From: Nitratidesulfovibrio liaohensis
GTDB taxonomy: Bacteria; Desulfobacterota; Desulfovibrionia; Desulfovibrionales; Desulfovibrionaceae
Assembly (NCBI RefSeq): GCF_011682075.1
Contig: NZ_VSMK01000111.1
Location: forward strand, 1 to 55,820
Direction of reading: 5' to 3'
DNA length: 55,820 bases
Below are positions 38,715 through 55,820 of this stretch, piece by piece. A program made the position numbers and the translations under genes. The stretch's first letter is position 1; each line of letters starts with the position of its first letter. The notes beneath the pieces are model-generated. The model made no database searches and was not told the DNA's origin. It saw only the letters and a program-made list of their open reading frames with translations.

Positions 38715-38726
38715 GGCTCCCTCCCC

Positions 38727-38743
38727 TGCGGCACCGTGCCGCA
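38727..38743. other. Short palindrome between outer-membrane and deacetylase genes
   Basis: TGCGGCAC and GTGCCGCA around a single C. The real fold is probably a 5-bp stem with a 7-base loop. It lies 13 bases before the deacetylase start and may tune translation or transcription; no T-run. Confidence 0.3.
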
Positions 38744-38768
38744 TCAGCTTTCCTGGCGTCTTACGATA

Positions 38769-40091
38769 TCAAAATGTCATTCCCCATTCGATCATGATTC
38801 TGTTCACGGTAAACGACGATGCGTCATCACTGGAGTCCACGGACTTGTATCTGTATGTCAGTGCAAGCCACGAAGACTCCGTGAGCTCATAGTTGAGCCC
38901 CGCACTTGCGTAGTAGCGGTCTGAGGTTATGCTGGACGTTGATCCTGCATCCAGTTCCGCGTTGATGCCTGCGCTGGCTTTCAGGCGATCCGTGAGTTCG
39001 TAAGTGTAGTTGATGCCCGGCCTCCAGAACTTGTTGCCACCCCCCTGCAACGAGCTTTCATATTCGGCGTATCCCAGCGTGGCGCTCAGCGTGGAGCGGT
39101 CGAACTGAAAGGATATGCCCGCCGTGTTCAGGTCGCGCAGAATGCTCTGGCCTGTTTCGGGGTCGTTGGTATAGTCGCGCTCGCTGGAAAGGGTCAGTGT
39201 TTTCCGGTCCAGGGCATGCGACAGGTCGGCGGAATAATACAACCGTACGGACTGGTCCCCGGCGTCCGTTTCCGTGAGCATGGGCCCCGCCTTGACGCGC
39301 ACCATGCTCTTTTCCGCATACTCGTAGCGGACGCCCACATAGGGGCGGTGCCGGTAGAAGTCCTGCTGTTCCTCCGCTTCCTGGCGCATCAGGTCATAGC
39401 CGGTGAGCATCGTGATAGTTTCGCTCGCTTCATGTTCCAGGTCTCCAAACAGTTCGTGCTGTTGCCGCACGTTCCTGTTCAGGGATGCTTCCCCGCTGCT
39501 CCACCCCGGAACCAACTTGCGCGAGCCGCTGCCGGGTTCTTCTTCCTCGGCGTAGCGGATGTCCGAAAAGCGGTAGCCGGTCTTCAGGCTGGTGCGTTCG
39601 CCCGGCTTGAAGGAAAAATACGGTGAGACCGTGAACGTGTTCTGGTCCGTCTGGTCTCGCGTGGTATCGCCCTCGACCAGGTCGCCACGGGCCGCCTGCC
39701 GGTAGACCGGACGCAGATTCTCGGCGATGTCCAGAAAGAACCTGTCCTCGGCCAGTTCCAGCAGCACCCGTGCATCCAGCGTGTGGCTGTAGTTGTCCGG
39801 CGCCTCGCCCTGCATGTAGTAGGAGTAGTCGCCCTTGTAATCGACCTTCGCCGTCACCCGCTCGGCCTCGTACTGGTATCGGAGGCCAGGCTTGACGTGC
39901 GAAACGAAATCTCCTTTACCGTTGCGGGTTTCCCTGACGTTGTCGTTGTATTCGCCGCCAAGGCCGAACGTTGCCTCCACGGTCTGGTCCGCAAGGGCGC
40001 CGCCTGCGGAGACGGCCAAGAGCCCCACGGCGCCCAACACCGCGACAAATCTTATGAAGCTACGTTCAGAAACGGGTTTCCCGGAAGCCAT
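38769..40091 (-). CDS. Outer-membrane beta-barrel protein, PEP-CTERM-associated
   Basis: 440-aa exported protein. A signal peptide (FIRFVAVLGAVGLLAVSAGGALA) precedes a sequence of alternating strands rich in Tyr, Asp and Ser, and ends in aromatic Phe (RIMIEWGMTF), as outer-membrane barrels do. Roughly fourteen to eighteen strands fit the length. It matches the uncharacterised barrel common in XrtA loci and is probably the outer-membrane exit for the polysaccharide, since the export protein at 43729 is small. Start has GGGGAG ahead. Confidence 0.85.
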   Translation of the reverse strand: MASGKPVSERSFIRFVAVLGAVGLLAVSAGGALADQTVEATFGLGGEYNDNVRETRNGKGDFVSHVKPGLRYQYEAERVTAKVDYKGDYSYYMQGEAPDNYSHTLDARVLLELAEDRFFLDIAENLRPVYRQAARGDLVEGDTTRDQTDQNTFTVSPYFSFKPGERTSLKTGYRFSDIRYAEEEEPGSGSRKLVPGWSSGEASLNRNVRQQHELFGDLEHEASETITMLTGYDLMRQEAEEQQDFYRHRPYVGVRYEYAEKSMVRVKAGPMLTETDAGDQSVRLYYSADLSHALDRKTLTLSSERDYTNDPETGQSILRDLNTAGISFQFDRSTLSATLGYAEYESSLQGGGNKFWRPGINYTYELTDRLKASAGINAELDAGSTSSITSDRYYASAGLNYELTESSWLALTYRYKSVDSSDDASSFTVNRIMIEWGMTF

Positions 40092-40134
40092 CTGTCACTC
40101 CCCGTGTCTCCGCACCGTTGGCGCGACGTTCTGC

Positions 40135-41322
40135 CTAGTCGCCGGCAAACCACCGCCACAGCCAGCCATGCCGGGGGCGGATATCCGTGTCCGTCCCCTG
40201 CGGCTGTTCCTGCCGCACCTGCACCAGCCACTGCGCCTGCGCGAAACCCAGCCGGTCCACCCTTTCCGAAAGTTGCGACAGGGTCCGCTCCATCGCCTTC
40301 TGCCGTTCCAGCATGTCGAGATAGGCGTTCTCGCCCATACGCGACTGCATTTCCTCAAGTTCGCCTACCCGGCGTGACAACCCGAGCAGCAGCGAGGCCA
40401 ACCCCTGTGCCGTACCGGACGAACGGGCATCGGCCTTCTTCGATGCATCCGGGAGCGGCTGTGCCCGCACATCCTCGCCAGCGGGCTCCACGGCGGGGGA
40501 CTCGGGCCAGAATTGCCGTTCGAAATCCATCGACCGCAAAAGATCCTGCATCTGCGTCAGGGAAACGCTTCTCCTGTCTGCAGCGTAGGCATCCAGCAAC
40601 GCATAGCCGCACAGGACGTTCACCAGGCGAGGAATCCCTCTCGTTTCCCGGTGTATTTCATCCAGCACTCCTTCCTCGAACTGCAATGCGTCCCTGTTTC
40701 CGGCACGTTCCATTCTGCATGCGATGTATTCCGCAGTTTCCTGAACCGTCAGCGGTTCCAGATGGCATTGCACCAGTATGCGCTGCCGCAGTTGAAGCAG
40801 TTGCGGCGACCGGATGCGCTCCCGCAGTTCCGGCTGACCCACCAGGATGATCTGGAGCAACTTGGCGTTGTCCGTTTCAAGATTGGAAAGCATGCGGATT
40901 TCTTCGAGCACCTCCGGGGCAAGGTTCTGGGCCTCGTCGATGATGAGCACCGGGCGGCGGCGTTCCGCATATTGGTCGATGAGGAACTCGTTCAGCTCGC
41001 GCAGCATCGTGACCTTGTCCTTGCCCTCCGTCTCCAGTCCGAAATCGTCGTTGATCATTGCCACCAGCTGCTCGGCATCCACGCTGGTGTTGAACACCTT
41101 CGAGATGAGCACGTCGCCGAGATTGCGCTTCAGCAGATCCCGGATAAGCGTGGTTTTGCCCGCGCCCACCTCGCCCGTGATCAGGATGAAGCCGGCCCGT
41201 TCACGCACCCCGTATTCCAGGTAGGCGGACGCCTTGCGATACGCCCGGCTCGGATAGAGAAAGTCGGGGTTGGGCAGCAGGTCGAACGGCTTGACCCTGA
41301 AGCGGAAGAATTCGGCGTACAC
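40135..41322 (-). CDS. XrtA-associated AAA ATPase (GspA/ExeA-like)
   Basis: 395-aa cytoplasmic ATPase. Walker A GEVGAGKTT at 50-58 and Walker B VLIIDEAQ near 125-132, then the sensor VGQPELRE and GIPRLVNVLC, as in ExeA/GspA-type ATPases. The N-terminal MYAEFFRFRVKPFDLLPNPDF is typical of the exosortase-locus form. A coiled-coil C-terminal part (about 310-370) ends in a tryptophan-rich tail. It sits directly after the tyrosine kinase gene, 11 bases away, and may power assembly or control chain synthesis. Confidence 0.9.
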   Translation of the reverse strand: MYAEFFRFRVKPFDLLPNPDFLYPSRAYRKASAYLEYGVRERAGFILITGEVGAGKTTLIRDLLKRNLGDVLISKVFNTSVDAEQLVAMINDDFGLETEGKDKVTMLRELNEFLIDQYAERRRPVLIIDEAQNLAPEVLEEIRMLSNLETDNAKLLQIILVGQPELRERIRSPQLLQLRQRILVQCHLEPLTVQETAEYIACRMERAGNRDALQFEEGVLDEIHRETRGIPRLVNVLCGYALLDAYAADRRSVSLTQMQDLLRSMDFERQFWPESPAVEPAGEDVRAQPLPDASKKADARSSGTAQGLASLLLGLSRRVGELEEMQSRMGENAYLDMLERQKAMERTLSQLSERVDRLGFAQAQWLVQVRQEQPQGTDTDIRPRHGWLWRWFAGD

Positions 41323-41333
41323 CTATATCACCA

Positions 41334-42215
41334 TCACTCGACCCCGTTCCGTCCGGAGCGGTGGTTGCCATACCCGTAGCGATTGCTGCCATACCTGTTG
41401 CCGTAACCGGGAAAGCTCGGCCACGCGGGGTGGCTTGCGTCGTTGTAGATGACGCCCAACACGTTGGCGCCCTCTATGGCCTCCTGCGTCTTGCCCAGCC
41501 CGCTGATCGTCGCCAGATTTTCCCGCGCCACCAACAGCACGCCATCCACCATGCGGCTGAGCACCCGGGTTTCGGCAAACGGCAGCACCGGCGCGGTGTC
41601 CACGATGATGTACCGGTCTGCGTAGCGGCGCTTCATTTCCAACAGCATGTCGCGCATCATCGAGGAGGCAAACAGTTCCCCGGGGTTGGCAAGCTGCCGC
41701 CCCGCGGGAAGAAACGACAAACGCCCCACCCCGGTGGGCACAAGGGCCTCGTGCAGGGGAACCCCGTCCATCAGGCAGTCCGACAGCCCCGGCGAGGCAT
41801 CGACGCCGAACAGTTCGTGCCCGCACGGGGCGCGCAGATCGGCGTCGATGTACAGAACCGTGTTGTCGTATTCCTGCGCGAGGCTTAAGGCCAGGTTCGC
41901 CGAAACCAGCGTCTTCCCCTCGCCCATCACCGAACTGGTGACCATGAACAGGTTCATTCCCTTCTGGCGGGCCAGGGAGACGAGCTTCTCCTTGACCTTG
42001 CGGTATTCCTCGCTCACGGGGTTATCGAAACCCGATGCCGCGATGAGCTTGGGATCAAGCGTCACCGAGCGTGTGACCGATGCGGGCCGGGGAGTATCCC
42101 CTGGCGGCACGGACACGGCGAGAGAAGAGCCGAAAGCCCCCCCCGCCTCCGCAGGTGCACCATCGGCCTTCCGCTCCCTGTTCGCTCGTGCGAGCGCCTC
42201 CTCGATCCTGCTCAT
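41334..42215 (-). CDS. Exopolysaccharide tyrosine autokinase (BY-kinase), XrtA-associated
   Basis: 293-aa bacterial tyrosine kinase, the cytoplasmic partner of the chain-length regulator encoded just upstream. Walker A SSVMGEGKT (Lys101), Walker A' VLYIDADLR (120-128) and Walker B YIIVDTAP (202-209) are present. The tail holds a tyrosine cluster (Tyr271, 275, 280, 282 in GYGNRYGSNRYGYGN), the likely autophosphorylation site. The start MSRIEEALARA is the family's usual start; ATG 42215 has AGGA 7 bases ahead and is preferred over ATG 42221. Confidence 0.92.
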   Translation of the reverse strand: MSRIEEALARANRERKADGAPAEAGGAFGSSLAVSVPPGDTPRPASVTRSVTLDPKLIAASGFDNPVSEEYRKVKEKLVSLARQKGMNLFMVTSSVMGEGKTLVSANLALSLAQEYDNTVLYIDADLRAPCGHELFGVDASPGLSDCLMDGVPLHEALVPTGVGRLSFLPAGRQLANPGELFASSMMRDMLLEMKRRYADRYIIVDTAPVLPFAETRVLSRMVDGVLLVARENLATISGLGKTQEAIEGANVLGVIYNDASHPAWPSFPGYGNRYGSNRYGYGNHRSGRNGVE

Positions 42216-42225
42216 GGCCATATCC

Positions 42226-43668
42226 TCACAACCACGTGGAAAGAATGTTGCGAACCCTGGCAAACAACATATCCAACCCTTCGAAACCACTGTACTCCAC
42301 CCCGGCAAGCCCCGCGATGCACAGCATCGCCAGCAGGGCCAGGGCGATGGCGGTCCGCCTGCGTCTCGCGACGCGCGCGTCCGCGGCGGTGGCTATGCGC
42401 GGCAGCGCGCCAAGCACCAGAAATCCCCTGGATGTCAGGTCCTCCAACGAGCGAACCCGGCGGAAAAACTGATCGGACAGGATGATCCCCCCAGCGGCCA
42501 CGATTATGCCCACCACCATCGAACCCAGCATGATCAGCGGTCTGTTGGGGCTGCTGGGCCGCAGGGGAAGGATTGCGGGGTCGATGATACGAAAGCTCAC
42601 TGCCTTGTCCTGCAATTCCATCTGCTTCGAGACCTCCGACTGCCCGTAGCGCGACACGAGCTGCTCGTAGATCAACGTCTCGTTCTTGCGCGCCTGCTGC
42701 AGAGCCTGAAGCTCTGTCTGCACGGCGGGAAGTTCTTGCAACAGCCGCTTGTCCTTCTCTATGAGCGCCTGCTGGACCTGCTCTATCTCGTTCAGCGACT
42801 CCAGCTCCACCTTGAGGCGCTGATACTCCATGCTGCTCTTGCGGCGTTCCGTCCCGCTCCCGCCAGAGCGCAGGGCTTCAAGCTCCTCCCGGGCCCTGAC
42901 GACGTCCGGATGCTGGTCGGTGTAGGTGCGCAGCAACGTCTTGTAGGATGCTTCCTTCTCCGCAAGCCGCCCCCCACCGCTTCCTTTTTCGAGAATATTG
43001 AGCTGGGCAAGACGTTCGTTCTTGCGAATGCGCGTCTCCTCCAGCCGATGTTCCGTTTCCTTGATTTCCTCGCGGAGTATGTTCTCATTCAGACTGAGGA
43101 TCATACCCTTCTCAGACTTGTACGCATCAATCGCCTGCTGTGCAGAGTCGATGCGCTTCTGGAATACGGATATCTGGTCTGAGAGGAACCTTGTCGCTTC
43201 GTACGACTCCTCTCGCTTCGATGACGTACTTTCTTCGATGTATCTCCTCGTCAATGCATTGACGAAGTCGCGCGCTTTTTCCGGAGACGAATTCGCGTAT
43301 CGAATGTAGAATAGACCTTTTCTTTCTTCATGCGTTATTTCAACATTTGATCGCGTTGTTTCTATCAAACGCTCAAGCCCCTCACCTTGCAGCCCCAAAT
43401 CCATGTCCAGGTCCTTGATCACCCTCAGCAACATCTTGCGGCTGAGTATGGAGACCTTGAGAATCCGCAGCTTTGCCTCCAACGAGGGCGTAATGGCAAT
43501 GCCCTTTACCAGCTCGTTGACCACGTTCTCCTCGATGGAGACGGACGACTGAGCCTGATACCGCTTGGGGAGCACGTAGCTTACCGCGACCCCGAGCACC
43601 GCCACGAGCACCGCCACCACGCAGAACGACACGACGCTCTCGTCCAGCAGCACGAGGTAACGCTTCAT
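42226..43668 (-). CDS. Polysaccharide chain-length determinant (Wzz/PCP), XrtA-associated
   Basis: 480-aa inner-membrane co-polymerase. Membrane helices at about 12-33 (VVSFCVVAVLVAVLGVAV) and near 390-410 (PLIMLGSMVVGIIVAAGG), with a further hydrophobic stretch near 440; between them a long periplasmic coiled coil (about 150-330) with many Glu, Lys and Leu. The proline-rich site before the second helix reads PAILPLRPSSPNRP, as in Wzz proteins. ATG 43668 has GAGGGG ahead. Works with the tyrosine kinase at 41334. Parts around 43050-43350 are AT-richer than the rest. Confidence 0.9.
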   Translation of the reverse strand: MKRYLVLLDESVVSFCVVAVLVAVLGVAVSYVLPKRYQAQSSVSIEENVVNELVKGIAITPSLEAKLRILKVSILSRKMLLRVIKDLDMDLGLQGEGLERLIETTRSNVEITHEERKGLFYIRYANSSPEKARDFVNALTRRYIEESTSSKREESYEATRFLSDQISVFQKRIDSAQQAIDAYKSEKGMILSLNENILREEIKETEHRLEETRIRKNERLAQLNILEKGSGGGRLAEKEASYKTLLRTYTDQHPDVVRAREELEALRSGGSGTERRKSSMEYQRLKVELESLNEIEQVQQALIEKDKRLLQELPAVQTELQALQQARKNETLIYEQLVSRYGQSEVSKQMELQDKAVSFRIIDPAILPLRPSSPNRPLIMLGSMVVGIIVAAGGIILSDQFFRRVRSLEDLTSRGFLVLGALPRIATAADARVARRRRTAIALALLAMLCIAGLAGVEYSGFEGLDMLFARVRNILSTWL

Positions 43669-43728
43669 ATCCGGCCCCTCAGACGACTGCCCGCCTGACT
43701 TCACCGGCCGATGTCCCCCCTGCGCCAT

Positions 43729-44535
43729 CTAGAACATCCCCTTTTTGGCGATCACGTAATCGCCCGCCTGCAGCTGCACGTTCTGGCTAAGGTCACCCTT
43801 GTCGACCAGGTCGCCCGCGCGCACGACGATGACTTCCGGACGCCCGTCATGCTCGCGCACGATTTCCGTCCGATTCCGGTCGGCAAACCGCGTAAACCCT
43901 TCGGCGGCCAGCAGCGCCTCAAGCAGCGTCATGCCGTCGTGGTGGGCTACGGTCTTCGGGGTGTTCACGGCACCAACGACGTACACCGCCCATTTCGCAC
44001 GGAAAGGAATGAACACCCTGTCGCCCGGCTTGAGCTCCACATCGTCCGAGGCAACACCCCGTTCGTAGAGATCGCGAAAACCGGTCCTCAGCACGTCCTC
44101 TCCACGCGACAGTGTTGCGCCATCAAGATCCGCCGTGGCTTCGGGAGCCACGCGGGTGAGCACTTGCAAAAGCGTAGTCCGCCCCACAAGGGGAACCATG
44201 CCCGGCTTCACGCCAGGCCCATGCACGATCACGCTGTTGTTCTGCGACGTATCCACACTCACGGTAACAACCGGATTGCGCACGATTTCGCCGTATTTCC
44301 CGGCTATCTTCGTCTGCAATTGCTCCGGGGTTTGCCCGGCGGCATCCACATCGCCAACACCCGGCAGCGTCACCTTGCCGTCCGGCCTGACCGTCACCTT
44401 GACAGACAGTTCCTTTTCACCCCACACATTGACGTTGATCACGTCTCCGTATCCGACTACATACTCGAACGAGTAACCGACAGACGCGCACACAAGCACA
44501 GCAACAACAGCTACGACTCCAGCAAAATATTTCAC
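43729..44535 (-). CDS. Polysaccharide export protein (Wza-type), XrtA-associated
   Basis: 268-aa exported protein with the polysaccharide-export domain (YVVGYGDVINVNVWGEKELSV, TVRPDGKVTLPGVGDV) and two SLBB-like repeats (VIVHGPGVKPGMVPL; VYVVGAVNTPKTVAHHDG). The signal peptide is clear but there is no lipobox cysteine, so it is probably periplasmic rather than a lipoprotein, and needs a separate outer-membrane exit. The start is GTG 44535, sharing its G with the stop of the sugar transferase gene; GGAGCAGGAG lies ahead. Confidence 0.88.
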   Translation of the reverse strand: MKYFAGVVAVVAVLVCASVGYSFEYVVGYGDVINVNVWGEKELSVKVTVRPDGKVTLPGVGDVDAAGQTPEQLQTKIAGKYGEIVRNPVVTVSVDTSQNNSVIVHGPGVKPGMVPLVGRTTLLQVLTRVAPEATADLDGATLSRGEDVLRTGFRDLYERGVASDDVELKPGDRVFIPFRAKWAVYVVGAVNTPKTVAHHDGMTLLEALLAAEGFTRFADRNRTEIVREHDGRPEVIVVRAGDLVDKGDLSQNVQLQAGDYVIAKKGMF

Positions 44536-45866
44536 TATCGTGCTCCTGCTCCTAAAAGTACAACGGAGAATGTTCTCGCAAGAATCTCCATATCCAGCAT
44601 CAGCGTACGGTTCTTGATGTAATAGAGGTCATAGCGCAGCTTTTCGAGCGCATCAGACTTGCTGGCCCCATAGGGGAAGCACACTTGCGCCCAGCCGGTA
44701 AGCCCGGGCTTCACGGCGTGGCGCTGATCATAGAAAGGCACTTCGCGCACCAGTTCGGAAACGAATTCGGGGCGTTCCGGGCGGGGCCCGATGAACCCCA
44801 TGTCCCCGCGCAGCACGTTGAAAAGCTGCGGAAGTTCATCGATGCGGCAGCGGCGCAGAAAACCGCCAAGGCGGGTCACCCGGCTGTCATTGACACGGGC
44901 CCATACCGGCCCGGTGTCCCTTTCCGCGCCATCGCGCATGGTTCTGAACTTGTAGAGCGCAAACGGCTTGCCTCCCCGCCCCACCCGAACCTGCCGGAAC
45001 AGTATGGGCCCGAGTGAATCGAGGGATATGGCAAGCGCCACGACGGGCAGAAACGGGGCCACCAGGAAAAGCGCCAGGAGCGCCAGCACGATATCCGCAA
45101 GCCGCCTGGCGCATTCTTCCCAACGCGCCCCACCGAAGCCCGGCGCGAAAATGAACCAGCCGGGGGTGATGCCCTCGATGTTCAGCTTGCGCGTGACAAG
45201 CTCGTAGAAGGTGGGCGCATCAAGCACCCGCACCCCGCGCAACCGGCACCTCAGCACGGCATCGAGGGGGAACGTGCCACGCCGTTCCGACAGGCTGACC
45301 ACGATGATCCGCACGCCTTCCCGGTGGGCGAGATCCGCCAGCCAGTCCGCATCGCGCTCCGCCGCCTCCGCCCCCGGATCAGGGCACTGGACGACTGCTT
45401 TCACCCGGTACCGCCCGTCGGCATCGGCCACCAGAGCCGTCACCCTGCGGATGCCCTCGGCATTGCCAAGCACGAGAACACCCCGCACCAGCGCGGGAAA
45501 TACGTGCCAGTAAGAGGATGCAAGAACGCACCCCCCCCGCAGCAGGGCAAACCAGAGGAGCGCCCACAGAGCCAGGCTTTCGCGTTGCAGCAATAGGCCG
45601 GTGCCGAAATGCAGCGGCACCAGCACCACCGCTGCCGCAAACACGGCAAGGACGGTTCCGCCCACACCCGGGGAGACTTCGTCCCCTCTGGCCTCCAGCG
45701 CTTCCACCGTGGCCGCGCACAGCAGCAGGACGACAGCCAACGCCAGCAGGTCGCGCAACGGCGGCGCCGCCACACCGTGCGGTGACGACGACAGCACGGC
45801 AAAAAGCAGCGCCAGCGCCACCCAGGCGGAATCACGCAACAGATGGATGATGGACAGGCGGCTCAT
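44535..45866 (-). CDS. Initiating sugar transferase (polyprenyl-phosphate sugar-phosphotransferase), PEP-CTERM-associated
   Basis: 443-aa membrane enzyme that starts the repeat unit by moving sugar-1-phosphate to undecaprenyl phosphate. N-terminal hydrophobic helices (about 10-130), a Rossmann-like middle (VLVLGNAEGIRRV) and the C-terminal catalytic domain: LADIVLALLALFLVAPFLP, FRQVRVGRGGKPFALYKFRTM, CRIDELPQLFNVLRGDMGF, IGPRPERPEF and VKPGLTGWAQV. Start at ATG 45866 with GAGG ahead. Second gene of the long unit, 11 bases after prsT. Confidence 0.92.
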   Translation of the reverse strand: MSRLSIIHLLRDSAWVALALLFAVLSSSPHGVAAPPLRDLLALAVVLLLCAATVEALEARGDEVSPGVGGTVLAVFAAAVVLVPLHFGTGLLLQRESLALWALLWFALLRGGCVLASSYWHVFPALVRGVLVLGNAEGIRRVTALVADADGRYRVKAVVQCPDPGAEAAERDADWLADLAHREGVRIIVVSLSERRGTFPLDAVLRCRLRGVRVLDAPTFYELVTRKLNIEGITPGWFIFAPGFGGARWEECARRLADIVLALLALFLVAPFLPVVALAISLDSLGPILFRQVRVGRGGKPFALYKFRTMRDGAERDTGPVWARVNDSRVTRLGGFLRRCRIDELPQLFNVLRGDMGFIGPRPERPEFVSELVREVPFYDQRHAVKPGLTGWAQVCFPYGASKSDALEKLRYDLYYIKNRTLMLDMEILARTFSVVLLGAGAR

Positions 45867-45877
45867 TCCCAACCTCG

Positions 45878-48529
45878 CTAGTTGCCAGCCTTGCGCAGCA
45901 GTTCCCTGGCTTGGGCCGCCTCGGGGAAGTCGGGGGTCTGAAGAGCCACGCGCAGTTCTTCCGCGGCCTTGTCCTTGCGCCCGGCCTTGAAGTGCGCCTC
46001 CGCATGGTGGTAGCGCAACGTGGGATTGTCAGGTGCCGCAGCCACCGCGCGACCGTATGCCCGCGAGGCCTCGTCGGCCCTGCCGTTGGCCATCATGCAG
46101 GCGCCAAGGGTATCAAGCACATCGGGATTCTCGGGAGAATGCGTGTACGCCTGGAGGGCCAACCGCAAGGCCATCTGCGCCCGCCCGTTCTGGTGCAAAT
46201 AGGCCATGGCCAGGTTGTTCATGGCCACGACATTGGCCGGAGCCAGGCGCAATGCCTTTTCGTAGACGGGAATGGACTGGGAGTACGCCTTGCGGCGCAT
46301 CTGCAGCGTGCCCATGGCCAGCAGGGCAGGCACATCGTCGGGCTGGGCCTTCAGGGCTTCCTTGTAGCAGGCCTCCGCCCGTGCAAGGTCCCCGCCCCGC
46401 TCAAGCATCCCCCCCATCGCCAGCAGCAGGTCCGCGCTTCCCTTCTGGCGATACGCCGCATCAAGGAGCTGGATTCCCTGTTCGCGCTGCTGCATGCGTT
46501 CAAGCGCATAGGCTTCGAGCATGGTCGGCAACGACGATCCGCCATCCCGCAGGCCAAGCGTGCGCGCCGTCTCGGCGGCCTCCTGGTTGCGCCGCATGTG
46601 GGTAAGCAGGCGATAGCGGCCAATCAGGGCCTCGCGCGGTCGTTGCGCCTCGATGCTGCTGTAAAGGGCGAGCGCGGCATCCGGCTTGTTCTCGCGCACC
46701 AGCAGCACGGCGAGAGCCTCGCGCAGGGCTTCCTGGTTGTCGGCCTGCAGCGCCGCCTCCAGTATCTGCTTCGCCTTGTCCGTGCGCCCTGTCGCGGCGG
46801 CCCGATTGGCCACCACGAGCACAACCTGGAAGTCCTTGCTCGCGAGCGCCTTGTCGAACCGCGCATCCGCCTCGGCCGTTCTGCCCAGCAGATCAAGCAG
46901 CGCCCCGGACGCCACAAGGAAGCCCGGGGAGTCGGGTGAAACGGCAAGATACGCCTCACTCTCGGCCAGCGCCTGCTCCACCCTGCCTGCCCCGGCATGG
47001 ACGCGCAGCCCGGCAAGATATGCATCGGCAAATGCCGGATCGGCCCGGTGGGCTTTCGCCACCGCGTCAAGCGCCTTGGCCTCCTTGCCCGCATTGGCAT
47101 AGAGAGGAACCAGCATCGTATACAGCACGGCGTCCTGCGGGGTGTTGTTCATCCCTTCGAGGACGGCCTTCTCCGCCTTGTCCATCTCTCCGCGCCCCAA
47201 ATGAAAGGCATACAGCGCATTGCGGGCGATGACGTTGTCCGGGGCCGCGACCACGGCGGTGCGCAGGTCGGCCAGGGCCTCGTCCATCCTTCCTTCGGAC
47301 TGCTTCAGCGTGCTGAGCTGCAACAGGGCGCCGACATGCGCCGGCTCCTGGGCCAGACCGGCCTCCAACTCCTTCTCGGCGCCTCTCTTGTCCTTTCCGG
47401 CCAGGAGCACCCCGGCCATCAGGAAATGCGCATTGGCGTCTCCCGGATTCCTGTCGAGAAGCTTCCGGGCCTCCTGCATCGCCTCATCCAGGCGGCGCTG
47501 GGCCAGCAGGATGGTGCACACCATCCGCCGGGCCGCGTCATGGTCCGGGGTGGACGCCAGCACCGTATTGAACTGGCTCAGGGCCATTTCCAGGTCGCCC
47601 TTGGCATAAAGCGCCATCCCCAGCTTGTAGTAGCCCTCGACGCTGGGGCGCAGCGCGACGCTGCGCTGCAGAAGGGTCGCCGCTTCGGCGTAGTTCTTCC
47701 TGGTGGCGGCCAGGGCGCCCTCCAACAGGAACACCAGGGCGCTGTCCTTGAAGTCCGCGCGCATGGCGGCGGCCGTCTGCGCGGCCTCGGCCTCGTTGCC
47801 AAGCTGCAGTTGGAGCACGCCCATCATGTACCGGGCGTTTTCATCACGGGGGGTCAACTGGGTGATCTTGCGAAACGCGGAAAGCGCCTTGTCCGCCTCT
47901 CCCTGCCGCAACAGGATGTCGCCCTGAAGCGCGAGGGCCGCCGTATCATCGGGGGCGACGGAAAGGGCCTCTTGCAGCACGGATGAAGCCGCGCGCAGAT
48001 CGCCCCGATACAGGAAAAGGCGCCCCAGCGCCAAACGAGCAGATATGCGTTTGGGATCAAGGCCGAAGGACTGTTCCAGGGCCTTGCGCGCTTCGTCCGG
48101 GCGCCTGGCCTGGCCATACGCAAGTCCGGCCAGCTCGCGCGAGGCAGCGGTGGCACCCGCATGCTCCTCGAACTTCTGGACATGAACAAGCGCCTGCTCC
48201 GGCAGGTTGCGCGCAACGTACACTTCACCCAAGGCAAGGTTCAGCGTCGGGTCATTTGGCTGCTGCCGGTAGCACTTCTGAAGCTCGTTCTCGGCCAGAT
48301 CAATCTTGCCAAGGGCATAGTAGGCGCGGCCCAGTTCAAGATGCAGCGTGTAATCACCGGGGTTCTTTTCCAGCGCATTTTTGAAAAGCACCACGGCGCC
48401 AGCCGGGTTGCCTTGCCCCATCAGCTTGCGCCCTTCGGACAGGAAGTCCCCTGCCTTGTCGGTTCCGCAGCCAGAGATGGGCAGCAGGATCATGACCAAG
48501 CAAACGAGCCAGCGAAGATTGTTCCACAC
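45878..48529 (-). CDS. prsT: PEP-CTERM system TPR lipoprotein PrsT
   Basis: 883-aa lipoprotein. The signal peptide ends in a lipobox (LPISGC, Cys21). Then about twenty tetratricopeptide repeats cover nearly the whole length (for example NPAGAVVLFKNALEKNPGDY; LGKIDLAENELQKCYRQQP). This is PrsT, a marker of exosortase loci; it probably organises the secretion/export complex at the membrane. GTG 48529 is chosen because GGAGG lies 7 bases ahead. It is the first gene of the 40-kb unit and has a sigma-54 promoter about 45-60 bases upstream. Confidence 0.92.
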   Translation of the reverse strand: MWNNLRWLVCLVMILLPISGCGTDKAGDFLSEGRKLMGQGNPAGAVVLFKNALEKNPGDYTLHLELGRAYYALGKIDLAENELQKCYRQQPNDPTLNLALGEVYVARNLPEQALVHVQKFEEHAGATAASRELAGLAYGQARRPDEARKALEQSFGLDPKRISARLALGRLFLYRGDLRAASSVLQEALSVAPDDTAALALQGDILLRQGEADKALSAFRKITQLTPRDENARYMMGVLQLQLGNEAEAAQTAAAMRADFKDSALVFLLEGALAATRKNYAEAATLLQRSVALRPSVEGYYKLGMALYAKGDLEMALSQFNTVLASTPDHDAARRMVCTILLAQRRLDEAMQEARKLLDRNPGDANAHFLMAGVLLAGKDKRGAEKELEAGLAQEPAHVGALLQLSTLKQSEGRMDEALADLRTAVVAAPDNVIARNALYAFHLGRGEMDKAEKAVLEGMNNTPQDAVLYTMLVPLYANAGKEAKALDAVAKAHRADPAFADAYLAGLRVHAGAGRVEQALAESEAYLAVSPDSPGFLVASGALLDLLGRTAEADARFDKALASKDFQVVLVVANRAAATGRTDKAKQILEAALQADNQEALREALAVLLVRENKPDAALALYSSIEAQRPREALIGRYRLLTHMRRNQEAAETARTLGLRDGGSSLPTMLEAYALERMQQREQGIQLLDAAYRQKGSADLLLAMGGMLERGGDLARAEACYKEALKAQPDDVPALLAMGTLQMRRKAYSQSIPVYEKALRLAPANVVAMNNLAMAYLHQNGRAQMALRLALQAYTHSPENPDVLDTLGACMMANGRADEASRAYGRAVAAAPDNPTLRYHHAEAHFKAGRKDKAAEELRVALQTPDFPEAAQARELLRKAGN

Positions 48530-48572: not shown

Positions 48573-48588
48573 AGCCAATACCATGCCA
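48573..48588 (-). promoter_or_regulatory. Sigma-54 promoter of the prsT operon
   Basis: On the minus strand 48588 to 48573 reads TGGCATGGTATTGGCT, against consensus TGGCACRNNNNTTGCW. The invariant GG (-24) and GC (-12) are present at the right spacing; two bases differ (C6 to T and T13 to G). Transcription should begin about 12 bases on, near 48561, leaving about 32 bases before the GTG of prsT. Confidence 0.75.
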
Positions 48589-49025: not shown

Positions 49026-49589
49026 TCATGCCGTTCCGCTTGTCGGAAAATCCGACACCTGTAAATTCTCTCGACACACCACGGCGTCGTGTCCACTTTC
49101 TGTTTGCTGTGACAAAAGGAACCTCACCAACGCACGAAGTGAAATGATATCAGGCGTTACAAACGCTCCACCCACGACAAGCCTGTCACCAACAGCCATG
49201 TAACGTATCTGGCAATTGAACGTCACAACCTCTTCATCCGAAGGAAATGTAAACATCAATTCGAAAATGCCTGCCTCTCTCATGGCCCTTTCGTATTCTA
49301 CACACGCATGATGTATCTCAGCCCTGACACCACATAAAGATATATTCCTTATGACAGTCGGAGTACATCTGTACTGATTTTCGCCTTCTGAAACATGCGC
49401 TATGGCATCAATTTTTGCAAACTTGCGATGAACCCTCCTTTTTTCAATATCATTATTCATATAGCTAACATAACCACTTTCGAAGAATGTGTTCAGTATT
49501 CCGGAAGCAATTTGTCCAGGAGAACACTTCAGACATTCAGAAACATTTGCGAGGCGCGACCCTGCTTGCATATCTACTTCAACACTCAT
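49026..49589 (-). CDS. PilZ-domain protein (cyclic-di-GMP receptor-like)
   Basis: 187-aa soluble protein. A PilZ domain follows about 48 residues of unknown function: arginine motif EKRRVHRK at 49-56, then VIRNISLCGVRAEI with the NxSxxG motif at Asn82-Gly87, then FNCQIRYMAVGDRLVVGGAFV. Both cyclic-di-GMP motifs are intact. ATG 49589 has GAGGG about 10 bases ahead; TTG 49643 gives a longer form without a ribosome site, and ATG 49460 a shorter one. It is divergent from the fusion gene and has its own sigma-54 match at 49709-49724, so it may belong to the PrsR regulon. Confidence 0.78.
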   Translation of the reverse strand: MSVEVDMQAGSRLANVSECLKCSPGQIASGILNTFFESGYVSYMNNDIEKRRVHRKFAKIDAIAHVSEGENQYRCTPTVIRNISLCGVRAEIHHACVEYERAMREAGIFELMFTFPSDEEVVTFNCQIRYMAVGDRLVVGGAFVTPDIISLRALVRFLLSQQTESGHDAVVCRENLQVSDFPTSGTA

Positions 49590-49708
49590 CACAACAGCGC
49601 CCTCACTTGCGGGATTCCCGCCTTTAAGTGGTTCGCATACCAATCATACTGTACATCATTACACTCCGCGAACAGAACCTTGGCGCACCGCGTTGCCACC
49701 AGACTCCA

Positions 49709-49724
49709 TGCCACATTCATGCCA
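49709..49724 (-). promoter_or_regulatory. Sigma-54 promoter match upstream of the PilZ gene
   Basis: Minus strand 49724 to 49709 reads TGGCATGAATGTGGCA: GG and GC at correct spacing, with the same two departures from consensus as the promoters at 48573 and 49816. The start would be near 49697, about 110 bases before the ATG at 49589. Confidence 0.62.
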
Positions 49725-49791: not shown

Positions 49792-49815
49792 AAAAACCTC
49801 GCACCGGCACTCCGC

Positions 49816-49831
49816 TGGCATGAAACTGGCT
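49816..49831 (+). promoter_or_regulatory. Sigma-54 promoter of the acyltransferase-ThiF-nitroreductase gene
   Basis: TGGCATGAAACTGGCT: GG at -24 and GC at -12, correct spacing, two departures from consensus shared with the prsT and PilZ promoters. The expected start is near 49843, about 40 bases before the ATG at 49882. Confidence 0.75.
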
Positions 49832-49881: not shown

Positions 49882-52788
49882 ATGCTCGCAATCGCCGACA
49901 AAAGACGCACCATTCGCATCAAGCGGTCTTCCCTGCTCCAGTGCAAACTGGACTCCCTGGACAGGCCAGCCATAAAAATCGCGGAAACGCCCGACGAATA
50001 TACGCGGGCGTTTCGGCTTGTGTATGAAGAGTACCTGCGCTCTGGTTACACCAGGCCGCACCCTTCTCTCATGCACTACACCATCTGGAGCATGCTGCCG
50101 CAAACGTCCGTCTTCGTCTTCAAGAGTTACCACGACGTGCTATGCACGCTATCGCACATACCAGATTCGGACATGTTCGGGCTCCCTCTGGACTCCTTGT
50201 ACAAGCCTGAAGTCGACAAGCTTCGAGACAAAGGAAGAAGCATTGTCGAAGTAGGTGCTCTTGCGACGCAATACACGCGCAGATGGACAAACCTCATGGT
50301 CTATCTTGCAAAGGCCATGTTCCAGTATTCCATCATGTCCCATGTCGATGACATCGTCATTACCGTAAACCCCAAGCATGTAAATTTCTATACACAGATA
50401 TTCCTGTTCAAGCCTTTTGGAGAAGTTCGCCATTACGGCTCCGTGAATGCCCCTGCGGTGGCATTGCGCATAAATCTTTCCGAGACCGTGGATGAACTCA
50501 AGGAAAAGTATGACAACACCGACGACTTCGACACCAACCTTTTCACATTCTTCGTCCGCATGAACAGCGGCGAGACGGACACCAAGGACAACCCCGTCAA
50601 GCGGGACCAGCCCCTTGATCCGTACACCGCCTATCATCTGTTGCGCCAGCGCCCGGAACTTCTGGACCAATTGGCCGAAGAGCAACGCGACTTCATTGAA
50701 ACGATCTACCACCGGGCTCTGTTCAACCACTTCTCGACACACCCCGCCCACCCCGAAACGCCCAGCGGTGTCCCGTTGGACATGCTCAAGCTCGAAAACC
50801 GGGACGCGTACACCGATGTGGCCTTCTGCAGAAACCTGGGCCTGGTGGACTACGCCGGACAGCGCAAGCTGCTCGGCTCCCGCGTGGCCATTGCGGGGCT
50901 GGGCGGCGTGGGCGGCGTGCACCTGATGACGCTTGCCCGCACCGGAATCGGCAATTTCAACCTGGCCGACTTCGACGCGTACTCGCCCGTCAACATCAAT
51001 AGACAGTACGGAGCGAGCATCGCCAGCTTCGGGAGAAACAAGCTCGACGTCATGACCGAGCGCGCGCTCAGCGTGAATCCGTTCATGGACATCCGCGCCT
51101 TTCCCGGAGGCGTCACCGCCTCCTCGCTCGACGACTTCCTCAAGGATGTCGACCTGGTGGTGGATGGCATAGACTTTTTTGCGCTTGACGTGCGCCGCCA
51201 GCTGTTCAACCGCGCCCTTGCGCTGGGCATTCCCGTCATTACCGCCGCGCCGCTCGGGTTCTCTTGCGCACTGCTCGTATTCACACCGGGCGGCATGAAC
51301 TTTGACGACTACTTCGACATCACGGAACACACCGAAAAAATGGAGGCCTACCTGCGCTTCGGCATGGGGTTGGCGCCCCGCCCGGCTCACCTTGGCTACA
51401 TGGACAGGCGGTTCGTCAGCCTGCACGATCGCCGGGGTCCTTCGCTGGACATCGCCTGCCACATGTGCGCGGGCATGGCCGCCACGGAGGCGGTCCGCCT
51501 GCTGTTGGGCAAAAAAGGGATCAGGCCGACGCCGTACTTTCGTCAGTTCGACCCACTCACGGGGCGATTCACGACCGGGAAGCTGCGCCAGGGCCTGCGG
51601 TCGCCCCTGCAACGGCTGAAGCTTGCCATCGCCCGACGGTTCTTTCTCGGCACGCCGCGCACCGGCGCCCTGCGCCCCCCCGATCCGGAAATGGTGGGCC
51701 TGCGCCAGGACATCCCCCCCGCAACGCTGGAATACATCGCGCAGGCAGCCACCCGGGCGCCATCGGGCGACAACGTGCAGCCATGGCGCATCGCTATGCA
51801 CGAGACCGGCATACACATCCACGCGGCAAGACAGGCGGACGACTCATTCTTCAATTACCGGCAGGTCGCCACCCTGCTTGCCTGCGGGGCGGCCGTGCAG
51901 AATGCCGTCTTCGCCGCCGGCAGTGTCGGGCTGGACGCCGACCTTTCGCTGTTCCCGGACGAACAGGAGCACGACCGCGTGGCGTCGCTTCATTGCACCC
52001 CCATTGGAGTGCAAAGCCACGAGATCATGGCGGCGGCCCTCTGGCGGCGGCACACCAACCGGCGCATGTATTCGGCCAGCCCCATACCGCCCGCCGTGCG
52101 CGACCGGGTTGATCACATCGTCGGCGAACAGCAGGATGCGGCACTGGTCTGGGCGACCGCCATGGCGCAGCGCAAGACTCTGGCCAAGGCCGTCTACCTT
52201 GCCGACAGGGTACGCGTGGAGCGGCCCGACCTGCACGAGCACCTGATGCGCTTCATCCGCTTCGAACCACAGAAGGGGCCATACGGCGACGGGCTGCCCC
52301 TGGGCAACCTGGAGGCGGGTCCACTGGGCGAGATGTACCTGCGCGGCCTACGGCCATGGCACGCCATGCATGCGGCGAACCTGATCGGGCTCGGCAGGCT
52401 CATGCCGCTGCACGGCGCGCTCAGCGTTCTGCGAAGTGGTGGCGTGGCGCTGCTGCTGGCCAACGGAGAGGCCGAGGCGGACATTGTCCGCGCGGGCATG
52501 GCCTGGCAACGCGCATGGTGCGCCCTGGAGCACATGGGCTACGCATTGCAGCCTCTTGCAGCCCTGCCGCTGCTGCACCTGCGCATTCGCCTGGGAGACG
52601 CGGAAACACTTTCGCCTTTCCATGTATCCCTGCTGGAAAAGGCGTGGAACCTGCTTGCCGAGGCATTGCCGCATCCATCGGACAAACTGCCGGTCATGCT
52701 GTTCCGGACGGGCATCGGGTCCGCCATTCGGCATGGCACCTATCGACTGGCACTGTCGGAAATCCTGATTCCCGACAACCTGGCCTGA
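49882..52788 (+). CDS. Fusion: N-acyl amino acid synthase (FeeM-like) - ThiF/E1-like - nitroreductase-like
   Basis: 968-aa soluble protein with three recognisable parts. (a) 1-225: GNAT-type N-acyl amino acid synthase like FeeM and the PEP-CTERM-associated acyltransferases (LVYEEYLRSGYTRPHPS; VFKSYHDVLCTLSHIPDSD; RSIVEVGALA). (b) About 315-560: ThiF/MoeB/E1-like adenylating domain, with the ATP loop AIAGLGGVGGVHL at 336-348, INRQYG (Arg374), DLVVDGID (Asp430) and HMCAGMAATEAVRLL. (c) About 605-965: nitroreductase-like FMN domain (ATRAPSGDNVQPWRI). The ThiF-nitroreductase pair recalls the Rv1355c family. A likely role is to make an N-acyl amino acid, activate its carboxylate and oxidise or reduce the product; this is inferred. 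ATG 49882 has GAGG 6 bases ahead. The first part of the gene is AT-richer than the rest. Confidence 0.85.
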   Translation: MLAIADKRRTIRIKRSSLLQCKLDSLDRPAIKIAETPDEYTRAFRLVYEEYLRSGYTRPHPSLMHYTIWSMLPQTSVFVFKSYHDVLCTLSHIPDSDMFGLPLDSLYKPEVDKLRDKGRSIVEVGALATQYTRRWTNLMVYLAKAMFQYSIMSHVDDIVITVNPKHVNFYTQIFLFKPFGEVRHYGSVNAPAVALRINLSETVDELKEKYDNTDDFDTNLFTFFVRMNSGETDTKDNPVKRDQPLDPYTAYHLLRQRPELLDQLAEEQRDFIETIYHRALFNHFSTHPAHPETPSGVPLDMLKLENRDAYTDVAFCRNLGLVDYAGQRKLLGSRVAIAGLGGVGGVHLMTLARTGIGNFNLADFDAYSPVNINRQYGASIASFGRNKLDVMTERALSVNPFMDIRAFPGGVTASSLDDFLKDVDLVVDGIDFFALDVRRQLFNRALALGIPVITAAPLGFSCALLVFTPGGMNFDDYFDITEHTEKMEAYLRFGMGLAPRPAHLGYMDRRFVSLHDRRGPSLDIACHMCAGMAATEAVRLLLGKKGIRPTPYFRQFDPLTGRFTTGKLRQGLRSPLQRLKLAIARRFFLGTPRTGALRPPDPEMVGLRQDIPPATLEYIAQAATRAPSGDNVQPWRIAMHETGIHIHAARQADDSFFNYRQVATLLACGAAVQNAVFAAGSVGLDADLSLFPDEQEHDRVASLHCTPIGVQSHEIMAAALWRRHTNRRMYSASPIPPAVRDRVDHIVGEQQDAALVWATAMAQRKTLAKAVYLADRVRVERPDLHEHLMRFIRFEPQKGPYGDGLPLGNLEAGPLGEMYLRGLRPWHAMHAANLIGLGRLMPLHGALSVLRSGGVALLLANGEAEADIVRAGMAWQRAWCALEHMGYALQPLAALPLLHLRIRLGDAETLSPFHVSLLEKAWNLLAEALPHPSDKLPVMLFRTGIGSAIRHGTYRLALSEILIPDNLA

Positions 52789-53051: not shown

Positions 53052-53067
53052 TGGCACAACGCTTGCT
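53052..53067 (+). promoter_or_regulatory. Consensus sigma-54 promoter of the PEP-CTERM genes
   Basis: TGGCACAACGCTTGCT fits TGGCACRNNNNTTGCW at every defined base, preceded by T (Y at the next position). The start should be near 53079, giving about 48 bases of leader. AT-rich DNA (52998-53050) lies directly upstream. Confidence 0.88.
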
Positions 53068-53126
53068 TATTTCAGGCCATCGACCTTGGCGGCCGTCCTC
53101 AATTTTCGAGACAAGGAGCAAATGAG

Positions 53127-53990
53127 ATGAAGCGCATAGTATCAACGATTTGCAGCACTATCATCATCTCTACACTGATGATGTCCAGTGCCTGGGCGTC
53201 CCCCATCGCGTCGTGGGACTACACGGTCGATGGTGCTTTCATCAACTGGTCAACCACCGTGGGCACCAGCGGCGATTACAGTTCGCCGGTGCAGGGCATC
53301 ACCACCAATGTGGCCGACTACAAGTATCTGACATATGACCTGGATGCGGGCGTCCCCGTCCCTCCGGGCACGTATGCTGAAGGATACTCGAAGCTTTCCT
53401 GGGGCGACTACATCTGGAGCGGTCCGGGTCCCGTCTACTCGCAGGTACCGGGCGCCTCACTGAGTTCCATCGGGATCATCGCAAGCAGCGGTACGCTCAT
53501 CACCGACGGTCCGGCCTCGCTCGGCATGCAGTTGTACCATGACAACAACGTGATCCTCGGCGGTTCGATCCAGCTTGAATCCGGCATGGTTCGGGCCATT
53601 CTGCAGCTTACCCCTTCGGGCTTCCCCCCGCTGCCCGTCTTTTCCACCACGCTGGACTTCCTGTTCTTTGAAACCCCGAACGGCACGCCCACCGAAAGCG
53701 ACGTGTTCGTCCTGCTGAACCCGGAAGTAACCGAAGAGACGTTCCACTACTACGGCGTCGACTACGTGTTCAGCTTCGGCGGCTCGTTCGGCCTGATACC
53801 CGATGCATACCTTGCCCTGCTCGGCCTGCCTGCCGGGTCCGTGGGCTGGATCACCACCGAAAACGCACTCACCACGCACGACACGTTCGTCAGCATCACG
53901 GCGCTGCCCACTCCGGAGCCCTCCTCCATCATCCTGATGGGGCTCGGCCTCCTGGGCCTCTTCGGCCTCCGGCGGCACGCCCGAGCCTAA
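53127..53990 (+). CDS. PEP-CTERM protein 1 (exosortase substrate)
   Basis: 287-aa secreted protein. N-terminal signal peptide with cleavage after SSAWA; C-terminal exosortase signal at about 260-287: LPTPEPSS, a hydrophobic stretch (IILMGLGLLGLFGL) and the basic end RRHARA. Between them lies a Gly/Ser/Tyr-rich body (SWDYTVDGAFINWS; YSKLSWGDYIW) with YHDNNVI in a position that resembles the THxN-family PEP-CTERM motif. It should be processed by the exosortase at 24345 and end at the surface or in the matrix. ATG 53127 has AAGGAG 8 bases before it. It is paralogous to the next gene. Confidence 0.9.
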   Translation: MKRIVSTICSTIIISTLMMSSAWASPIASWDYTVDGAFINWSTTVGTSGDYSSPVQGITTNVADYKYLTYDLDAGVPVPPGTYAEGYSKLSWGDYIWSGPGPVYSQVPGASLSSIGIIASSGTLITDGPASLGMQLYHDNNVILGGSIQLESGMVRAILQLTPSGFPPLPVFSTTLDFLFFETPNGTPTESDVFVLLNPEVTEETFHYYGVDYVFSFGGSFGLIPDAYLALLGLPAGSVGWITTENALTTHDTFVSITALPTPEPSSIILMGLGLLGLFGLRRHARA

Positions 53991-54117: not shown

Positions 54118-54972
54118 ATGAAACGCCTTGCCACATTCTTCCTGACACTGCTTATCCCCCTGTTGCTCCAGACATCAGCATCGGCCAGCATCGTCACCCA
54201 GTGGAACTATACCGTCGATGGGGTATTCGTTGAGTGGGCCAACACGCTGAACGACAGCAACGTATACGGTGACAGCACCAACGGCATAACCGGCAGCAGC
54301 GCAAAGACCCTGACCTACAACTATGACGGCGGTGTCCTTGTCGATCCTGCGAAAAGCGTCACAGGCTATTCCAAGCTCAGCTGGGGCGACTACTACTACA
54401 ACGGCAGACGGTACGTAAGAGAGAACGTCAACCCACTGAGTTCCATCGTCCTTGCCGCGACCAGTGGCGTAATAGACACCAACGGCGCCGCCAAGGTCGG
54501 CCTTGTTCTCACGCACAACAATAACGCAATCCCGGCAAGCAACCTGGATCTGGCGAGCGGCATCGTCCGCGCTATCTTGAAGCTTACGCCCGTGGGCGGC
54601 AGCGCGCTGCCGGTATTCTCCACGTCCCTCGACTTCGCCTTCTATGAAACCCCCAACAACAGCAGCACCCCCAATGACGTCTTCGTGCTGCTGAATCCCG
54701 AAGTCACCCAGGAAGCCTTCCACTTTTACGGCATCGATTACGTGATGGACTTCACCAAGTCCTTCTCCCCCATTCCCGTCGCATACCGCACCGCCCTTGG
54801 CCTTGCCGCGGATGCCGTGGGTTGGGTGACATCCGAAGGCGCCACCACCATCCACGAAACGCTGCTGACCATCCGTGCTCTTCCGACGCCCGAACCCACT
54901 TCGGCGCTGCTGATGGGCATCGGGCTCGGTGGCTTGGCCCTGCTATCGCGGCGTGCAAGGCGCACTGCCTAG
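54118..54972 (+). CDS. PEP-CTERM protein 2 (exosortase substrate)
   Basis: 284-aa secreted protein, paralogue of the one at 53127: same length, same layout and many shared stretches (QWNYTVDGVFVEWANTL; GYSKLSWGDYYY; VFSTSLDFAFYETPN; NDVFVLLNPEVTQEAFHFYG). Signal peptide ends at QTSASA. The exosortase tail is at 255-284: LPTPEPTS, hydrophobic stretch, then RRARRTA. LTHNNNAIP carries the THxN motif intact. AGGAG lies 5-6 bases before ATG 54118. No sigma-54 site lies in the 127-base gap, so it is probably read from the promoter at 53052 through the stem-loop. Confidence 0.9.
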   Translation: MKRLATFFLTLLIPLLLQTSASASIVTQWNYTVDGVFVEWANTLNDSNVYGDSTNGITGSSAKTLTYNYDGGVLVDPAKSVTGYSKLSWGDYYYNGRRYVRENVNPLSSIVLAATSGVIDTNGAAKVGLVLTHNNNAIPASNLDLASGIVRAILKLTPVGGSALPVFSTSLDFAFYETPNNSSTPNDVFVLLNPEVTQEAFHFYGIDYVMDFTKSFSPIPVAYRTALGLAADAVGWVTSEGATTIHETLLTIRALPTPEPTSALLMGIGLGGLALLSRRARRTA

Positions 54973-55176: not shown

Positions 55177-55704
55177 CTACCACAACTCCCATGCACCCGC
55201 ATACAACACCCACAAGCCGAGCAGCCCATTGGTCACGGCATGCGCCAGAACGCAGCACCCGAGGCTTCCTGTCCGCAAGGCCACCATGTTGTACGCTGCC
55301 CCGGCCAGCATTCCCGCCACCACAAGGTGATGTTCCAGACCGAAGAGTATGGCCACGGCAAGGAACGACAAGGGGTGGAAACGGGACAACGGCACCCGGC
55401 GAAAATCCCCGCCCTGAAGATGGCGCATCAGGAAAGAACGCCAGAACAGTTCCTCTGCCAGGGGAACCAGTACCGCTGCCCCAATGAACCGGATGGCGAG
55501 CAGCAGGGGACGTGCCGCATCTCCCCAGGCCCGATGCGGAAAGGCAACGGGCGTTCCCACACGGCCCCACGGCACATCAAGGGCCAGCCACGCCGCAAAT
55601 ACCGCCACGCCCACCATGGATGCGAACAGAATGCCACGCCCGGTCATATCCGCCAGTCTGAGTTCCGGGCACTTCGGCAGGCACACCCCCAACGTAAGCG
55701 TCAC
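55177..55704 (-). CDS. CPBP-type intramembrane protease (PEP-CTERM-associated CAAX-protease-like)
   Basis: 175-aa membrane protein with the CPBP glutamic-protease motifs: EELFWRSF (EExxxR), FGLEHH and HAVTN. Four to five hydrophobic segments are seen. The start of the visible sequence (PELRLADMTGRGILFASMVGVAVFAAW) looks like the middle of the exosortase-locus CAAX-protease-like family, which normally carries further membrane helices before it; so this may be a shortened form. GTG 55704 follows AAGGAGGTGAT closely, arguing that this short form is translated. Upstream bases to the window edge give no clear extension. Confidence 0.7.
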   Translation of the reverse strand: MTLTLGVCLPKCPELRLADMTGRGILFASMVGVAVFAAWLALDVPWGRVGTPVAFPHRAWGDAARPLLLAIRFIGAAVLVPLAEELFWRSFLMRHLQGGDFRRVPLSRFHPLSFLAVAILFGLEHHLVVAGMLAGAAYNMVALRTGSLGCCVLAHAVTNGLLGLWVLYAGAWELW

Positions 55705-55820
55705 ATCACCTCCTTCTACCGCCCTCGTTTGAAATCCTGCATGCTCATCCTCCAATCAAGGAGGTGCGGGTATGCCGTCGAATCGCAGGCGAAGGTCGAA
55801 AAAGGAGTCTTATTGGCGGG

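Follow-up and report, generated by a model that had tools for sequence, protein, structure and literature searches.

A probable single-chain acyl-oxazolone synthase within an exosortase cluster of Nitratidesulfovibrio liaohensis

The question of why N-acyl amino acid synthases are so frequent in exosortase loci dates from 2011, when the link between the two was published (as cited in PMC4897644 and PMC7293339). A 55,820-nucleotide stretch of DNA from the sulfate-reducing bacterium Nitratidesulfovibrio liaohensis (contig NZ_VSMK01000111.1; hereafter the window) poses it in concrete form: a gene on the forward strand (49882..52788) encodes an N-acyltransferase joined to two further enzyme domains. 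A preliminary description of this gene had proposed an acyltransferase-E1-nitroreductase fusion forming part of a candidate new lipid small-molecule or lipidation system. Our analysis indicates that the protein is probably a single-chain acyl-oxazolone synthase.

The reading frame starts with an ATG at 49882, and its stop codon ends at 52788, giving 968 residues. The start codon is kept in N. vulgaris with the same MLAIADKRRTIRIKRSSLLQ, and in a relative with 94% identity (G004) the frame is already closed ~20 codons before it. The protein comprises a FeeM-type N-acyltransferase (residues ~1–284), a linker (residues 283–305), a ThiF-type putative cyclase (residues ~305–575) and an Acg-type putative flavin oxidase (residues ~607–967). 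The core of the FeeM (N-acyl amino acid synthase) domain (50008..50475, + strand; residues 43–198) was detected with PF21926 at E-values of 1.2e-45 to 1.8e-44 and matched 2g0b_A with an E-value of 1.9e-15. The ThiF/E1-like adenylating domain (50827..51585, +; residues 316–568) was detected with PF00899 (E 2.3e-50) and contains the ATP loop GLGGVGG at residues 339–345. The nitroreductase domain (51676..52785, +; residues 599–968) was recognized by PF00881 over residues 609–639 (E 4.8e-7) and carries the motif APSGDNVQPW at residue 626. Both motifs had been named in the preliminary description and are present as claimed.

An AlphaFold2 model of the synthase, built from 44 homologues, has a mean predicted local distance difference test score (pLDDT) of 86.6. 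Its single long low-confidence stretch (residues 283–305) lies between the acyltransferase and ThiF parts. Structure comparison of this model matched residues 25–207 to FeeM (PDB-entry 2g0b, Z 21.7), residues 303–574 to ThiF (1zud, Z 25.6; 1zfn also with Z ~25) and residues 607–967 to an Acg homologue (2ymv, Z 33.6 over 303 residues). AclA (PDB-entry 9egb) is another E1-like structural neighbour. Profiles and predicted structure agree with each other and confirm the three-domain fusion in one 968-residue chain; the N-terminal part is an acyltransferase, as had been supposed, and the ATP- and FMN-site residues are present. The fusion is kept in other species at 94%, 67–68% and 76–77% identity and is therefore neither an assembly error nor a product of chance. 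A frame or assembly artefact was rejected for this reason.

As a whole, the protein matches NCBIfam family NF011425 (PRK14852.1, annotated "hypothetical protein") over residues 1–965 with 1794.8 bits, at a cut-off of 1337. The ThiF-nitroreductase family NF011424 gave a weaker match. The score against the Rv1355c family NF005901 was 231 bits, below the cut-off of 476, and NF047509 (flavin oxidase, Acg branch) matched with an E-value of 2e-42, yet under the family cut-off.

What such a chain might make is suggested by three characterized systems. In TyzACB, an acyltransferase acylates L-tyrosine, a nitroreductase-family oxidase desaturates with O2 and a ThiF homologue performs the ATP-dependent ring closure (PMC10404671). 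In TrzAS, a ThiF-oxidase fusion closes the ring first and desaturates second; when O2 is lacking, the ring compound builds up in its saturated form (PMC12856293). The first acyl-oxazolone case was OxzAB of Pseudoalteromonas rubra, as told in the available text of PMC10404671 and PMC12856293.

Of these, TrzAS of Mycobacterium tuberculosis and M. smegmatis (Rv1356c-Rv1355c) resembles the synthase in combining an N-acyltransferase with a ThiF-flavin oxidase fusion in which ThiF precedes the oxidase. It differs in that the acyltransferase is a separate gene, the host is aerobic, the substrate is a short-chain acyl-tryptophan and no exosortase context has been described. OxzAB, which we compared by description only, likewise consists of an N-acyltransferase (OxzA) and a ThiF-flavin oxidase fusion (OxzB), but these are two proteins, and their products are acyl-tyrazolones and phenazolones. 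TyzACB of M. tuberculosis (Rv2336-2338c) has the same three activities on three separate proteins, again in an aerobic host and with no exosortase context described. The NasY/stieleriacine loci and those described in 2011 share with the window a FeeM-type synthase beside PEP-CTERM/exosortase genes; there, however, the synthase stands alone, with ThiF and oxidase encoded by separate genes or missing. The architecture is shared by the NF011425 members, including DVUA0034 (WP_011176612.1) of N. vulgaris, in which the same cluster lies on megaplasmids.

Replacement of D217, R540 or Q651 impaired TrzS (PMC12856293). These residues correspond to D202, R525 and Q638 of a mycobacterial Rv1355c-family homologue (offsets 15, 15 and 13) and, through it, to D431, R776 and Q890 of the synthase. 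The equivalence is partly inference, with the numbering carried over through the homologue. All three residues are invariant in all relatives aligned. The ThiF ATP site (GLGGVGG, R374, K387 and D431) is conserved throughout the same relatives, and APSGDN, R776 and Q890 of the oxidase form invariant columns.

From these homologues we infer each chemical step of the synthase. The FeeM domain would N-acylate an amino acid, most likely aromatic, with a fatty acyl group that probably comes from acyl-acyl carrier protein (acyl-ACP) or acyl-coenzyme A (acyl-CoA). At the expense of ATP, the ThiF domain would activate the carboxylate of this product as the adenylate, and the amide oxygen would close the oxazolone (azlactone) ring. 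The Acg-type flavin domain would desaturate the α-β bond of the oxazolone. We can only guess at the amino acid and chain length, at what accepts the electrons in the final step and at the biological role. The preliminary description had sketched acylation, activation or cyclization and then oxidation or reduction, and the oxidative form of this scheme matches the biochemistry shown for OxzAB, TyzACB and TrzAS. Its suggestion of a new system is not supported: the pathway was described between 2021 and 2025, exosortases had been linked to N-acyl amino acid synthases in 2011, and NF011425 already catalogues the fusion. The oxazolone chemistry itself is not new, since the same three activities occur as two or three proteins in the systems above. 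New here is that the presumed enzymes of oxazolone synthesis are joined in one chain, in an anaerobic host, and that this chain is encoded within an exosortase cluster and apparently co-regulated with it.

Several points weigh against an acyl-oxazolone product. The ThiF-nitroreductase part is only ~26% identical to the TrzS-family member compared (the mycobacterial homologue used for the residue mapping), and our literature search found no measured product for any NF011425 member or for the two-gene version in Desulfobacterota. The Desulfovibrionales are anaerobes, which speaks against an O2-dependent last step. Because the characterized oxazolone desaturases require O2 (PMC10404671, PMC12856293), the desaturation may halt in such a host, leaving the saturated oxazolone as the usual product until O2 exposure alters it, or use another acceptor; it is the weakest link of the proposed mechanism. 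As a tentative idea with a rather small chance of being right, the enzyme could employ an electron acceptor other than O2, or it could hold a saturated, reactive oxazolone until O2 appears. Such a compound would act as a chemical switch or acyl-aminoacyl donor that ties O2 exposure to biofilm-matrix assembly.

A further objection comes from Stieleria, Thalassotalea and Massilia, in which the same three genes go with N-acyl dehydro-amino acids and oxazolones were not seen; the stieleriacine study found only N-acyl dehydrotyrosines (PMC12479983). The oxazolone might accordingly be a passing intermediate and the real products surfactant-like N-acyl (dehydro)amino acids comparable to the stieleriacines and to thalassotalic and kyonggic acids, whose clusters contain these gene types. 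Oxazolones hydrolyse easily (PMC12856293), and the stieleriacine genes also adjoin exopolysaccharide (EPS) and PEP-CTERM genes, according to the available text of PMC7293339. On the other hand, acid-free extraction of cells yielded the TrzAS and TyzACB products as intact oxazolones (PMC12856293, PMC10404671), and the absence of oxazolones in the stieleriacine-type studies may reflect extraction. We regard such end products as unlikely, though as the main rival to an oxazolone.

The azlactone could also serve as an activated donor that passes its N-acyl-aminoacyl group to an amine of a polysaccharide or PEP-CTERM protein, which would make the locus a lipidation system. Scarce O2 is the normal state of the host, and saturated oxazolones build up under this condition (PMC12856293); moreover, the cluster contains deacetylase and FemAB genes that might produce or use amines. 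But no acceptor enzyme was identified, the known oxazolones are free small molecules and the argument is purely chemical, so we consider such a donor role improbable.

Since its fold matches ThiF and MoeB structures well, the ThiF domain might instead be an E1 of the sulfur-carrier or ubiquitin-like type whose substrate is a protein or peptide, the other domains being modifiers. Its scores against the sulfur-carrier E1 equivalogs, however, are far below the cut-offs (78 bits against 275 for TIGR02356 and 69.8 against 376 for TIGR02355). With a single CxxC pair (C526/C529) it lacks the double-CxxC zinc site, and an N-acyltransferase is the partner in most of this ThiF clade. On these three grounds a sulfur-carrier E1 was rejected as very improbable. 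A thiazole/oxazole-forming peptide modification system of the TOMM type, which likewise pairs an E1-like protein with a flavin enzyme, is hardly to be expected and was rejected, as the annotated genes of the cluster include no YcaO or precursor peptide (no search aimed at them was made), the flavin domain is of the Acg type and TOMM systems are not known to include a FeeM partner.

To return to the predicted acyl-oxazolone synthase, the three-domain chain was seen in Nitratidesulfovibrio only. Among 59 related genomes of the genus, family and order, it occurs in the window genome, in G004 (94% identity) and in G006 (67–68%); it is also present on three N. vulgaris plasmids (76–77%). When named genomes were scanned with the full-length sequence, no match appeared, but a profile built from the ThiF-nitroreductase part detected 80 loci. 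In none of 77 named loci with this ThiF clade was the acyltransferase in the same frame. ThiF and nitroreductase shared one frame in 48 of the 77; a FeeM gene lay within 5 kb in 52 and within 150 bp on the same strand in 18. A phylum sample of 394 genomes contained just one match in a frame of fusion length, that of the window itself; the next longest frame had 843 residues. Rows for the ThiF domain make up most of the VIA-align list, and the absence of other rows from it is uninformative.

Relatives in the order often hold the same parts as neighbours, the acyltransferase followed by ThiF-nitroreductase. The fusions form one clade in the ThiF-nitroreductase tree and in the FeeM tree, each time close to gene pairs of Desulfovibrionaceae in which the FeeM gene lies directly 5' of the ThiF-nitroreductase gene. 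One fusion event at this gene boundary would be the simplest history, and the disordered linker coincides with the presumed boundary.

Other arrangements of these genes were noted as well. Two genomes, G017 (locus L015) and G038 (L014), encode close FeeM homologues with no ThiF-nitroreductase partner found in the genome; G017 has no exosortase match either. One contig labelled Candidatus Pacearchaeota (L090) carries FeeM, ThiF and nitroreductase genes, through gene transfer or mis-binning. At five loci of Desulfovibrionales and related bacteria (L017, L018, L019, L020 and L023), two different FeeM genes lie near one ThiF-nitroreductase gene, and one cyclase may therefore serve two acyl-amino acids.

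The ThiF-nitroreductase part is statistically tied to exosortases. In the order, an exosortase was found in 13 of 13 genomes with ThiF-nitroreductase and in 11 of 46 without (Fisher P 6e-7); in the phylum sample the counts were 20 of 22 and 126 of 372 (P 1e-7). Both tests count related genomes as independent, so these P values are inflated, which also weakens the case for our reading. Where both genes are on one contig, they are 12–52 kb apart (11 of 11 genomes), and within the genus both are present in three genomes and both absent in five. In the wider clade, which reaches from Alphaproteobacteria to Omnitrophota, 37 of 48 genomes, many of them incomplete, have an exosortase. The expectation that homologues would mostly co-occur with exosortases has thus been borne out for this clade. 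The link belongs to the clade and not to oxazolone chemistry as such, because the mycobacterial systems have no described exosortase context. Its extension to ThiF-nitroreductase was not stated in the literature searched.

The locus itself is a complete exosortase cluster of the XrtA type: the window encodes an exosortase, EpsI, PrsT, PrsR and PEP-CTERM proteins. The EpsH/XrtA-like exosortase (24345..25199, − strand; PF09721) passes TIGR02602 with 273.8 bits and misses the XrtA model TIGR03109 by 3 bits (205.3, cut-off 208). It is adjoined by EpsI (23715..24344, −; TIGR02914) and by PrsR, the PEP-CTERM-box sigma-54 response regulator (22272..23633, −; TIGR02915, 605.5 bits). An XrtA-system FemAB protein and a polysaccharide deacetylase (36824..38744, −; TIGR03019, TIGR03006) are followed by the XrtA-system EPS genes (38769..45872, −) for a sugar transferase (TIGR03013), export (TIGR03027), chain length (TIGR03007), an ATPase (TIGR03015) and an outer membrane protein (TIGR03016), and by the tetratricopeptide repeat (TPR) lipoprotein PrsT (45878..48529, −; TIGR02917). 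Upstream of the synthase lies a divergent gene (49026..49643, −) that is PilZ-like at best; the weak likeness of its N. vulgaris counterpart to PilZ (E 0.012, below the cut-off) hints at control by cyclic diguanylate (c-di-GMP). Downstream are two THxN family PEP-CTERM proteins (53124..53990 and 54118..54972, both +; NF038125) and a CAAX protease-related PEP-CTERM system protein (55177..55755, −; TIGR03008, 233.8 bits). Near the cluster, region 12845–19885 (−) encodes a second FemAB/GNAT protein, a pyridoxal phosphate (PLP) decarboxylase and two ATP-grasp proteins, and resembles a small amino-acid ligase set.

A sigma-54 element that precedes PEP-CTERM genes is known from Haft et al. (2006), together with the regulator acting on it, PrsR (PMC1569441). 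We observed a sigma-54-like −24/−12 element, TGGCATGAAACTGGCT, upstream of the synthase (49816..49831, +) that is conserved in four Nitratidesulfovibrio species. Compared across these species, the element TGGCAYGAAACTGGCT, about 50 bases before the synthase start, varies at a single position (T/C), and mean column identity over the intergenic stretch around it is 68%. Further such elements lie upstream of the divergent gene (49709..49724, −; position conserved in the four-species comparison), of prsT (48573..48588, −; in the same place in N. vulgaris) and of the first THxN PEP-CTERM gene (53052..53067, +; perfect consensus, with one mismatch in the N. vulgaris counterpart). The pattern is not enriched over the whole window (6 found, 5 expected), so the argument is one of conserved position. 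It suggests that the synthase apparently shares sigma-54/PrsR control with the genes of the exosortase cluster. Just upstream of the synthase −24 site, TGTCGAAAAA (49787–49796) followed by CTC.CAC is nearly invariant in the four species and is a possible regulator site.

In N. vulgaris DP4 and RCH1 the plasmid orthologs (DVUL_RS15680 and DEVAL_RS15845) lie, as in the window, between the PrsT/EPS genes and two THxN PEP-CTERM genes. Both primers of a published digital-PCR assay for DVUA0034 in N. (Desulfovibrio) vulgaris (PMC12654214) match inside the DP4 ortholog in facing orientation with zero mismatches, which identifies this megaplasmid gene as the ortholog in D. vulgaris Hildenborough. In the available text of PMC5646257, DVUA0034 is annotated on the plasmid as a "dinucleotide-utilizing enzyme involved in molybdopterin and thiamine biosynthesis", and a Pro-to-Arg change in it (plasmid position 40,114) is among the sequence variants of laboratory Hildenborough cultures. 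DVUA0034 is reported to be repressed in rhamnolipid-dispersed biofilm cells, and its production to have a significant effect on biofilm formation (PMC6170446); loss of the megaplasmid lowers biofilm about threefold (PMC3333781). The available text of these biofilm and variant studies makes no connection to lipid chemistry. DVUA0057, the D. vulgaris counterpart of PrsR, binds upstream of PEP-CTERM and EPS genes (available text of PMC4641369 and PMC3333781). The target list in that text does not name DVUA0034, whose membership in the DVUA0057 regulon is therefore a prediction. The exosortase/synthase cluster is found on a 200-kb megaplasmid beside nif genes in N. vulgaris (L097, L099) and on a 1.65-Mb contig (C2) in the close relative G004; the whole cluster seems to move between replicons.

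In this picture sigma-54/PrsR would govern the synthase together with the exosortase, PEP-CTERM and exopolysaccharide genes, and the small lipid produced would serve the biofilm matrix or its regulation. The question of why exosortase loci often carry N-acyl amino acid synthases is now testable in a genetically tractable bacterium, where DVUA0034 combines a concrete prediction, an acyl-oxazolone, with an existing biofilm phenotype, a transposon library and a megaplasmid-cured strain. Biofilms of D. vulgaris matter for steel corrosion. If the prediction is true, acyl-oxazolones, which the papers cited describe from aerobes, would extend to anaerobes, and this would raise the question of how an O2-requiring step works without O2.

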